62,026 bases of DNA from Lachnospiraceae bacterium (GTDB lineage: Bacteria; Bacillota; Clostridia; Lachnospirales; Lachnospiraceae): positions 1 to 62,026 of the forward strand of contig JAEEQL010000002.1 of the NCBI GenBank assembly GCA_016285265.1. Direction: 5' to 3'. The translations under genes and the position numbers were made by a program. The notes beneath the pieces are model-generated. The model did not search any database. It was not told where the DNA came from and saw only the letters and a program-made list of their open reading frames with translations. Numbering within the stretch: the stretch's first letter is position 1; each line of letters opens with the position of its first letter. Below are positions 18,251 through 22,509 of this stretch, in pieces.

Positions 18251-20425
18251 TTGGAAAACAATCAGCAGAATCAGAATAACAAGAGACCCACAGGCGGCAG
18301 GAACAATTCGTGGATGATGATCCTCGCCGCACTTTGTACCGTTGTTGTGATCTTTCTTTTCTACAACATGATCTTCGGAAACAACGGTTCGACACAGACC
18401 AAGGAATACACCGAGTTCCTTGAAGATCTCGAGCAGGACAGGGTAGAGGCGGTCGAACTTGATGCGGAGAATGCGGAACTCACCGTAACGCTCAAGATGG
18501 ATGCCATCCTCCAGGATTCGGATACCGAAAGCCCCGGAGCGGACACCTCCAAGCTCGAGCAGTATGCATACCTTATCCAGATCCAGAACGAGAGAGTCTA
18601 CACCACAAGACTCATGGAATCCATGGATAACCTTATGGAAAGACTCGAAGCGCACGGTGTATCGGGTCAGAGAGTCGTAAGTTCATCGTCGGGACTTCTT
18701 ACCGAGATATTCGTCGGAGTCGTTCTTCCCGTTATCTTACTCTGGCTCCTCGCATCATTCCTCATGAGAAGGATGGGCGGAAGCGGCGGACCCATGGGCG
18801 TCGGAAAGAGCAATGCGAAGGTTTATGTACAGAAGGAGACCGGAGTCACATTCAAGGATGTGGCGGGTGAGGATGAAGCGAAGGAATCCCTCGTTGAGGT
18901 CGTTGATTTCCTCCACAATCCCGGCAAGTATTCGGGCATCGGTGCAAGACTTCCCAAGGGCGCACTTCTCGTAGGCCCTCCCGGAACAGGTAAGACACTT
19001 CTTGCCAAGGCTGTTGCGGGCGAAGCACATGTTCCCTTCTTTTCACTGACCGGTTCCGATTTCATCGAGCTTTACGTCGGTGTCGGTGCATCGAGAGTAA
19101 GGGACCTTTTCAAGGAAGCGACCAAGAACGCACCCTGCATCATCTTCATCGATGAGATCGATGCGATAGGAAGAAGCCGTGATTCCAAGTACGGCGGCGG
19201 AAACGAAGAAAGAGAACAGACCCTGAACCAGCTTCTGTCCGAGATGGACGGATTCGATTCATCAAAGGGTATCCTTATACTCGGTGCGACAAACCGTCCC
19301 GAGATACTTGATAAGGCACTCCTTAGGCCCGGACGTTTCGACAGGCGTATCATCGTCGACAAGCCCGATCTTAAGGGAAGAGTCGAGATCCTCAAGGTTC
19401 ATGCCAAGGACGTCAAGATGGATGAGAGCGTAGATCTCGATGCCATCGCGCTTGCGACCAGCGGTGCCGTAGGTTCGGACCTTGCGAACATGATCAACGA
19501 AGCCGCTATCAATGCGGTCAAGGAAGGCAGGGAATATGTCTGCCAGAAGGATCTTTTCAATGCCGTCGAGCAGGTTCTCGTAGGTAAGGAAAAGAAGGAC
19601 CGTATCATGAGCGCCGAGGAAAGGAAGATCGTTTCCTATCACGAGGTCGGTCATGCGCTCATCACCGCGCTCCAGAAAAACTCGGAGCCCGTCCAGAAGA
19701 TCACCATCGTACCCAGGACCATGGGTGCACTCGGATATGTAATGCAGGTTCCCGAGGAAGAGAAGTACTTAAATTCCAAGGAAGAGCTTGAGAACATGAT
19801 AGTATCCGCGCTCGGCGGACGTGCGGCTGAGGAGATAGTATTCGGCAATGTAACGACCGGCGCTGCCAACGATATCGAGAAGGCAACCTCGATCGCGAAG
19901 AACATGATCACCCGTTTCGGTATGAGCGAAAGATTCGGGCTTGCGGGATTTGCCACCGTTGAGAGCCAGTATCTCGAGGGACGCACATCGCTCAACTGCT
20001 CCGACCAGACCGCTGCTGCGATAGACGAAGAAGTCGTCAAGATGCTCAAAAAGGCTTATGACAAGGCCAAGGAGATGCTCCGGGGCGACCGCGAGCTGAT
20101 GGATAAGCTTGCAGCTTACCTCATCGAAAAAGAGACCATCACCGGCAAGGAGTTCATGCAGATCTTCCGCAAGGAGAAGGGAATTCCCGAGCCCGCAGAG
20201 GAAGAAAAGAAGCCTGCTTCGGGGGAGGCTTCCGAAAAGGCTGAAGAGAAGGATGCGGATTCCGGCAATTCCGCTGACGAAGCCGGTTCATCCGAAAAGA
20301 AAGATGATGCCGGCGAAGAGACTGCAGACGGCGATGTCACAGCTGAGGATGCCGCAAAGGGTATCGATGAGCTTACGCCCGACGGAGGTCCCGACATAGG
20401 AATCTTTTCAAATCATTCAATCTGA
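18251..20425 (+). CDS. ftsH: ATP-dependent zinc metalloprotease FtsH
   Basis: A 724-residue membrane protease that extracts and degrades membrane and short-lived cytosolic proteins. Two transmembrane segments lie at about 21-40 and 155-173 with an extracytoplasmic domain between them. The AAA+ domain shows Walker A GPPGTGKT, Walker [12 protein letters not shown] and second-region [20 protein letters not shown]. The peptidase zinc site HEVGH starts at residue 464. The last 70 or so residues are an acidic/lysine low-complexity tail, longer than in many FtsH proteins. Start is TTG, supported by GGAG 9 bases upstream. Confidence 0.97.
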
Positions 20426-20428
20426 TAA

Positions 20429-21865
20429 ATGCAGAGGAAGAACAGCTTCTACAGTAAAATAAGAAAAATAGGGGGCGGGGTATTTACTCTGCCTCTTGTT
20501 ATTATCCTGCTGCTTTCTTATCCCATGCAGGTAATGGCAGGTGAAGCGGTTCCGTCCGAATATACGGTAAACTGGCCCAAGGCGCCGGAGACGAGCGGCA
20601 GATCCGTGATACTCATGGAAGAGTCGACAGGTGTTGTGCTGTATGCGAAGAACATTCACGAAAAATGCTATCCCGCAGCACTTACCGCTGTAATGACGAG
20701 CATGCTCGCCGCGGAAAACTGTGACCTTGACGAGCGTGTTGAGTTTTCGACCGCTGCCGTAAGGGATGTTCCTTCGGGTGTCGTCAACATCGCGATAGAT
20801 CCCGGTGAGTCCCTTACCGTGAGCGAATGCCTTCAGGCGGTGCTGATAAGAGGAGCGGCCGAGTGCGGATTTGCTCTTGCCGAGCACGTGGGCGGAGGAT
20901 CGAGGGATTCGTTCGTTGCAATGATGAATTCGAGGGCTGCGGCGCTCGGATGTAAAGAGACCTCCTTTGCCAATCCCGTGGGACTCCACTCCGAGGACCA
21001 CTACACGACCGCATATGACATGGCTCTGATCGGAAGGGACTTTTTCGATAACGAGCTTTTATGCAAATACTCGCTCCAGAAGAACCTCCATCTTTATCCC
21101 ACGGAATTCCAGAAGGATGAGATCATAGAGCACAACGGAAACAGGATGGCAATCGGCGGTTCCTATGAGTATCCGTATCTGATAGGTGCGAGAACGGGAT
21201 ATACCGAGGAAGCCGGATACTGTCTCATCGCCGGTGCGGAAAAGGACGGAATGAAGCTGATCGTCGTCATACTCGATGACGGAAGCGACGAAAGATACGA
21301 GGATGCGATCAATCTTTTCAATTACGGATTTTCCGATTTTGCGCTTGTGAACGCATCCGAAAACGAGAAGTCATACAATGTCGGCTCGGGTGTCGGATCC
21401 TACGGAACCACCGATATCATGGGCGATTCGAGGCCCATGCTCTCTCTGGACAAGAAGGATTACGTGGTTCTTCCTCTGACTGTGGAATTTACGGACCTTC
21501 AGAGCAGGATCACCTATGAGAACGTTCCCGAAAGCGAAGCCGCAAGGATAATCTATTCATACCAGGGCGTTTATCTCGGGAAATGCTCGATCCTTTTCGG
21601 AGAGCCTTCGGATGTGTATGATTTCGGAACGGCGGCTCCCGAGGAAGTACCCGCCGAGGAAAAGCAGGGCAAGACCTTTGTCTTCATCAACATAGCCAAG
21701 GTCGCGAAGATAAGTGCCGTTATCGCCGCGGTACTTGGGCTGTTATATCTGATCGTAAAGCAGTACAAAAAATACAGAAAGGTACACCCTAACTGGAGAA
21801 GACAGTACAGAAAAGAACGTAAGAAGAGTATCTTCGCCGGAAGGAGTTTCAGAAAACCGAAATGA
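20429..21865 (+). CDS. D-alanyl-D-alanine carboxypeptidase (S11) homologue lacking catalytic residues
   Basis: A 478-residue protein with an N-terminal signal segment (about 14-36), a DacF/PBP5-like domain and a C-terminal membrane segment (about 427-447) followed by a basic tail. Alignment by eye shows all three active-site motifs changed: SxxK is replaced in YPAALTAVMT (usual PASTTKIMT), S-x-N is replaced in IRGAAECGFALAEH, and KTG is RTG in GARTGYTEEAGY. Structural parts such as NPVGLHSEDHYTTAYDMAL are well kept, so the fold is under selection. It is probably a non-catalytic wall-binding or scaffolding protein. The gene lies 3 bp after ftsH and overlaps trmB by four bases. Confidence 0.85.
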   Translation: MQRKNSFYSKIRKIGGGVFTLPLVIILLLSYPMQVMAGEAVPSEYTVNWPKAPETSGRSVILMEESTGVVLYAKNIHEKCYPAALTAVMTSMLAAENCDLDERVEFSTAAVRDVPSGVVNIAIDPGESLTVSECLQAVLIRGAAECGFALAEHVGGGSRDSFVAMMNSRAAALGCKETSFANPVGLHSEDHYTTAYDMALIGRDFFDNELLCKYSLQKNLHLYPTEFQKDEIIEHNGNRMAIGGSYEYPYLIGARTGYTEEAGYCLIAGAEKDGMKLIVVILDDGSDERYEDAINLFNYGFSDFALVNASENEKSYNVGSGVGSYGTTDIMGDSRPMLSLDKKDYVVLPLTVEFTDLQSRITYENVPESEAARIIYSYQGVYLGKCSILFGEPSDVYDFGTAAPEEVPAEEKQGKTFVFINIAKVAKISAVIAAVLGLLYLIVKQYKKYRKVHPNWRRQYRKERKKSIFAGRSFRKPK

Positions 21866-22509
21866 GACTTAAGAATGTTCCCGGATGCAGGGAAAGGATT
21901 GCAGAAAGCGAATACGTGATCCCCGAGGAGGAGCTTGTTCAGACCGCGGGAAAGTGGAACGAAAGGTTTGAAAAGCCCGCTCCCATACGTATCGAGATAG
22001 GCATGGGAAAGGGACGTTTCCTGCACGAGCTGGCGCTGCTCAATCCGGACATCAATTACATCGGAATAGAGAAATACTCCGCAGTCCTTCTTCGCGCGGT
22101 TCAGAAGATGGAGGAGGATCCGAAGCCCAACCTCCGCTTTGTAAGGATGGATGCCGAAACGATCGCGGATGTTTTCGCACCCGGTGAGGTCGACAGGATA
22201 TATCTTAATTTTTCGGATCCCTGGCCCAAGGACAGACATGCAAAAAGACGTCTTCCTTCTCGCGAATTCCTGGCAAGATATGATAAGATATTAGTTGACG
22301 GCGGAAGGATAGAATTCAAGACCGACAACCGTATTCTTTTTGACTGGGCAGTCGAACAGCTGGAGGATACAAAGTGGAAAGCGGATCTTATAACCTATGA
22401 TCTTCACGCCGATCCCGCCCTTCTCGAGGGCAACGTGATGACCGAATACGAAGAGAGATTCTCTTCGATGGGTAACCCGATATGTAAATATATTATCAGC
22501 AGGAAATGA
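21862..22509 (+). CDS. trmB: tRNA (guanine-N7-)-methyltransferase
   Basis: A 215-residue SAM-dependent enzyme that makes m7G46 in tRNA. Motif I is IEIGMGKGRFLHELA (about 44-58). The family signature LNFSDPWPKDRHAKRRL (about 115-131) and FKTDNRILFDW (about 152-162) follow. The start overlaps the upstream stop (ATGA), so translation is coupled. Length is normal. Confidence 0.95.
   Translation: MRLKNVPGCRERIAESEYVIPEEELVQTAGKWNERFEKPAPIRIEIGMGKGRFLHELALLNPDINYIGIEKYSAVLLRAVQKMEEDPKPNLRFVRMDAETIADVFAPGEVDRIYLNFSDPWPKDRHAKRRLPSREFLARYDKILVDGGRIEFKTDNRILFDWAVEQLEDTKWKADLITYDLHADPALLEGNVMTEYEERFSSMGNPICKYIISRK

Follow-up and report, generated by a model that had tools for sequence, protein, structure and literature searches.

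The ORF at 20429–21865 on the forward strand of the window (the whole stretch of 62,026 nucleotides that was analysed) encodes a 478-residue homologue of the DacA/DacF-type DD-carboxypeptidases which, as judged from its sequence and those of its orthologues, is a conserved pseudoenzyme of peptidase family S11; it represents no isolated mutation, and it is not a pseudogene in decay. Taking the lines of evidence together, the explanation we favour, with moderate confidence, is that its activity was lost once, that the protein was retained, and that it makes non-catalytic contacts in the wall machinery.

The family assignment is based on Pfam, the relatives 3mfd and 4k91 in the PDB and a fold match to 3mfd. 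Peptidase_S11 (PF00768) was found at residues 50–284 with 172.6 bits against a cut-off of 27.6 (E 1.3e-50), covering positions 5–237 of the 239 in the profile, and Pfam gave no other domain in the full 478-residue protein. The closest solved structures by sequence are those of Bacillus subtilis DacB (3mfd), Pseudomonas aeruginosa PBP5 (4k91) and a Vibrio cholerae carboxypeptidase (5tr7), while the best folds for the 478-residue protein are B. subtilis DacB and Escherichia coli PBP5/PBP6. An AlphaFold2 (AF2) model made from 30 orthologues has the DD-peptidase/beta-lactamase fold, matching 3mfd with an E value of 4e-26 and a TM-score of 0.85 (normalised by target), so the first-pass annotation was right that the S11 fold is retained. 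The catalytic-type domain, in which the catalytic residues are lost, spans residues 50–305 (20576–21343, forward strand, as are all features of the window given below), with pLDDT mostly above 90. It is preceded by a signal peptide (residues 1–37; 20429–20539), read by eye, with cleavage probably after VMA (...MQVMA/GEA) and an AF2 helix at residues 20–30, and followed by a beta-rich domain like domain II of PBP5 (residues 306–392; 21344–21604), which was recognised from the strands of the AF2 model and from its alignment with PBP5/PBP6 over the full length, and has no Pfam match. Residues 422–478 (21692–21862) form a transmembrane helix, predicted by AF2 at 422–452, and a basic cytoplasmic tail, YRKVHPNWRRQYRKER, with the HPNWR region; both the export signal and the C-terminal anchor claimed earlier thus appear to be retained. 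The tail motif YRKxHPNWRRQYRKER (21776–21820) hardly varies within the genus, in dead species (those whose catalytic motifs are replaced) as in intact ones, and is absent in other genera; HPNWR was accordingly rejected as a family-wide motif.

The DacA/DacF-type low-molecular-mass PBPs (E. coli PBP5/PBP6 and B. subtilis DacB, 3mfd) share with this protein the S11 domain and the following beta-rich domain, and apparently also an export signal (here read by eye) and C-terminal membrane anchoring (here predicted), and the modelled structure aligns with them over 340–370 columns at a probability of 1.00. The differences are that the window protein lacks all the catalytic motifs and that it has a transmembrane helix and a long basic tail in place of the amphipathic anchor of PBP5. 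Read against 3mfd, 4k91, 5tr7 and 15 intact orthologues, none of the motifs of an active DD-carboxypeptidase, SxxK, SxN and KTG, is present, and the replacements AxxA, GAA and RTG named in the first-pass annotation were all found in these alignments. Motif 1 reads A84-L-T-A87 for S-x-x-K (20678–20689), and A84 and A87 are invariant in the 16 dead copies, where they are written with 4 and 3 synonymous codons, respectively. By comparison with the orthologues, motif 2 reads G142-A-A144 for S-x-N (20852–20860) and motif 3 reads R255-T-G for K-T-G (21191–21199), the latter being K-G-G in the two earliest-branching species; in addition, the loop at residues 113–119 has DVPSGVV for the DTPRxSN of intact orthologues (20765–20785). 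A fourth active-site position is also lost, since V184 is N in intact orthologues and aligns with the His of the B. subtilis DacB segment NPHGL, the NPxGL segment being NPVGL in the window protein; the equivalent His of E. coli PBP5 faces the active site. In the alignment, V184-G-L-H187-S188 stands for N-G-L-P-D (20978–20992). The earlier statement that structural segments stay intact is thus only partly true, because the segment cited for it, NPVGLHSEDHYTTAYDMAL, has the clade-specific replacements N184V, P187H and D188S relative to intact orthologues, and the one at position 184 aligns with the active-site His of DacB.

It is known that the acyl-enzyme chemistry of serine DD-peptidases needs the Ser and Lys of motif 1. 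A protein with neither residue would therefore be expected to form no acyl-enzyme, and so neither to trim stem peptides nor to bind penicillin covalently. Moreover, polar positions of the groove are now apolar relative to intact orthologues (S84A, K87A, S142G, N144A, N184V, T114V and N119V). As we read the alignments with the solved structures, R198 of PBP5 falls at G237, which is uninformative on carboxylate binding because the intact orthologues likewise have no Arg there. The first-pass annotation had proposed binding of D-Ala-D-Ala stem peptides as one form of a non-catalytic role, and this is not supported, as the polar residues that would coordinate the peptide have given way to A, G, A, V and V, and the Thr of KTG is missing as well in two species. 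A more general version, in which the old substrate groove serves as a non-covalent, lectin-like binder of peptidoglycan or stem peptides, seems to us unlikely though worth keeping in view: the groove-lining segments are highly conserved, motif 3 still has the Thr-Gly of KTG in 14 of the 16 species and the modelled fold is intact, but the polar-to-apolar change and KGG in two species remove most of the canonical contacts to the D-Ala-D-Ala end. Scaffolding or protein contact would fit better than stem-peptide binding, because most of the polar positions that would hold the D-Ala-D-Ala end became Ala, Gly or Val, and because action by contacts is established for degenerate wall hydrolases (the LytM regulators, PMC10336132).

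The gene is present at the same locus in all 31 genomes of the genus, one per species examined, and SxxK, SANE and KTG are intact in 15 of these species and dead in the other 16 (G000, G001, G002, G010, G013–G017, G022, G023 and G026–G030). The pattern in the dead clade is A-x-T-A / G-A-(A or C) / RTG or KGG, with RTG in 14 of the 16 copies, including that of the window, and KGG in G022 and G030, the two that branch first and whose motif 2 also ends in C, not A. Among the carriers of a dead copy are two cultured isolates, AC2028 and P6A3, the former having been discussed as a fibre-associated rumen bacterium (PMC9562222). A degenerate DNA pattern for P-A-A-x-T-A, which is exact and would miss other substitutions, was run on 397 genomes of the family, representing 334 genera, and had no match in the 333 genera other than this one. 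When the genomes of 84,980 species were scanned and the best 80 loci retained, 8 of these were dead, all in the rumen lineage and including AC2028 and P6A3, and none of the other 72 was dead, the S and K of motif 1 being kept. An isolated mutation is rejected since 16 species share the dead motifs, and an assembly error by the same 16 species together with the two cultured isolates.

The window gene was shown to be the positional orthologue of the intact enzyme in sister species. It starts 4 bases past the stop of ftsH (18251–20425; PF01434 and PF00004) and its end overlaps by 4 bases the start of trmB (21862–22509; PF02390), so ORF positions and Pfam bear out the placement between these two genes given before; thioredoxin, hprK, ROK kinase and murB follow trmB. 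Whether the species is dead or intact, ftsH lies just upstream of dac, in some cases separated from it by a YitT-like gene, and hprK-ROK-murB lies downstream. dac also adjoins ftsH in the intact L019 and L028. trmB is near dac but inverted in some intact species; in L136, L137 and L142 it is encoded on the other strand and its position with respect to dac differs, which makes the dac-trmB overlap a trait of the gene order of the dead clade. The 15 intact ftsH-linked orthologues have the same architecture and the HPNWR tail, and are distinguished from the window protein, to which they are 43–54% identical, by keeping SxxK, SANE, KTG, NPNGLPD and DTPRxSN. In a tree of 72 S11 proteins from which the motif columns were left out, the dead copies form one clade with a support of 100, requiring one change of state, with the intact copy of G004 as sister. 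The branch to the clade is long, at 0.79, which is what a change of function would lead one to expect. According to the first-pass annotation, intact SxxK in close relatives would indicate a recent isolated mutation; such congeners do exist, but the loss is old and covers a whole clade.

Pairwise dN/dS within the dead clade (Nei-Gojobori, some pairs being near synonymous saturation) is 0.04–0.10 for the whole gene and 0.016–0.057 for the S11 domain, close to the values of intact pairs. The catalytic loss is thus conserved among species under purifying selection, which characterises a pseudoenzyme under selection. A decaying pseudogene is rejected by this selection and by the open reading frames in 16 species, and we give practically no weight to decay or assembly error together, for which the intact relatives within the genus could be cited, against 16 species with open frames, purifying selection and two cultured isolates. 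Furthermore, A84, A87, G142, V184, H187 and S188 are invariant in all 16 copies, although two to four codons are in use for each, so selection acts on the replacements themselves; the invariance of these residues over 16 species is far beyond chance. H187 and S188, being new and invariant in the clade, might be taken for part of a different catalytic activity, which we regard as very improbable because there is no recognisable new catalytic arrangement and a pocket replaced by Ala, Gly and Val argues for lost chemistry. The segments of the old active site have a mean entropy of 0.18–0.36 bits, against 0.45 for the domain, which suggests that this face still does something; the surroundings of motif 1 are somewhat relaxed relative to the domain (ratio 0.79, versus 0.26 in intact orthologues). 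By dN/dS no other large part of the protein is as constrained as the S11 domain. This bears on the alternative that the membrane helix with its basic HPNWR tail, or the C-terminal domain, is the essential part, for example as an FtsH-linked membrane adaptor, with the S11 domain as a passive carrier. Such an adaptor would agree with a tail nearly invariant in this genus and absent elsewhere, and with the position 4 bases after ftsH and beside ftsH also in L019 and L028, but a passive carrier should need neither the low dN/dS of the S11 domain nor old active-site segments that are among its most conserved, and we consider this improbable, more so than a groove binder. The core of the earlier proposal of a selected non-catalytic role therefore stands, on a single origin, 16 species, purifying selection and intact ORFs, whereas its D-Ala-D-Ala version does not.

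In the favoured reading of non-catalytic contacts, a D,D-carboxypeptidase of the DacA/DacF type turned into a pseudoenzyme a single time, in the common ancestor of a rumen Lachnospiraceae clade of at least 16 species, and has been kept since. After export the protein would be anchored on the outer side of the membrane, and its S11 domain could there contact other wall-synthesis proteins and regulate or position them; one candidate partner, suggested by gene content, is the active S11 enzyme retained in the mrdA-rodA-mgsA-dac cluster, and another would be a high-mass PBP. Pseudoenzymes are common, and the degenerate LytM proteins are a well-known class. Degenerate wall hydrolases acting as regulators have a precedent there (PMC10336132), and the mode could be likened to EnvC, NlpD and DipM, which regulate active wall hydrolases. 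These and ActS likewise have a peptidoglycan-hydrolase fold without catalytic residues and are kept in the envelope (PMC10336132), but their fold is unrelated, and regulation is demonstrated for them and only inferred for the window protein. No direct published precedent for an S11 or PBP pseudoenzyme was found in the open-access literature searched, which is not proof of absence. More tentatively, and with the chances somewhat against it, these proteins might represent a class of S11 pseudo-carboxypeptidases serving as an allosteric subunit or scaffold of wall synthesis, a penicillin-insensitive 'PBP', with catalysis passed to the mrdA-rodA-linked S11 enzyme and regulation following. The activity of DD-carboxypeptidases makes any non-catalytic role of theirs hard to test, and this lineage provides a natural separation-of-function experiment, since a single genus has both intact and dead orthologues at the same locus and culturable members on the dead side. 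It is also a warning, as automated annotation would label the window gene a DD-carboxypeptidase.

DacF of Bacillus has a role in sporulation. Such a role is unlikely for this DacF-like gene, since SpoIVA had no match in any of the 31 genomes of the genus. Compensation by VanY was rejected, VanY being common in both clades and not specific to the dead one. Two YkuD L,D-transpeptidases occur in 15 of the 16 dead-clade genomes (for example G000:C92:29711-30106), versus none or one in most intact-clade genomes; a link of the pair to the dead carboxypeptidase is unproven, as only one clade is concerned. One of the two dead-clade YkuD frames is shorter, mostly 324–357 residues. There are two S11 genes per dead-clade genome (one in two incomplete assemblies) and two to four per intact-clade genome, and fewer S11 paralogues in the dead lineage could also mean a generally reduced need for S11 enzymes. 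The second S11 gene of the dead-clade genomes, that of the window included, is intact and encodes a lipoprotein-like protein of 331 residues in the mrdA-rodA-mgsA-dac cluster, this enzyme (L002 / L134:133-1128, G000:C172) sitting with mgsA, rodA and mrdA. The branch to the dead-clade copies of this retained enzyme is also long (1.0), and the two S11 proteins may therefore have changed in concert.
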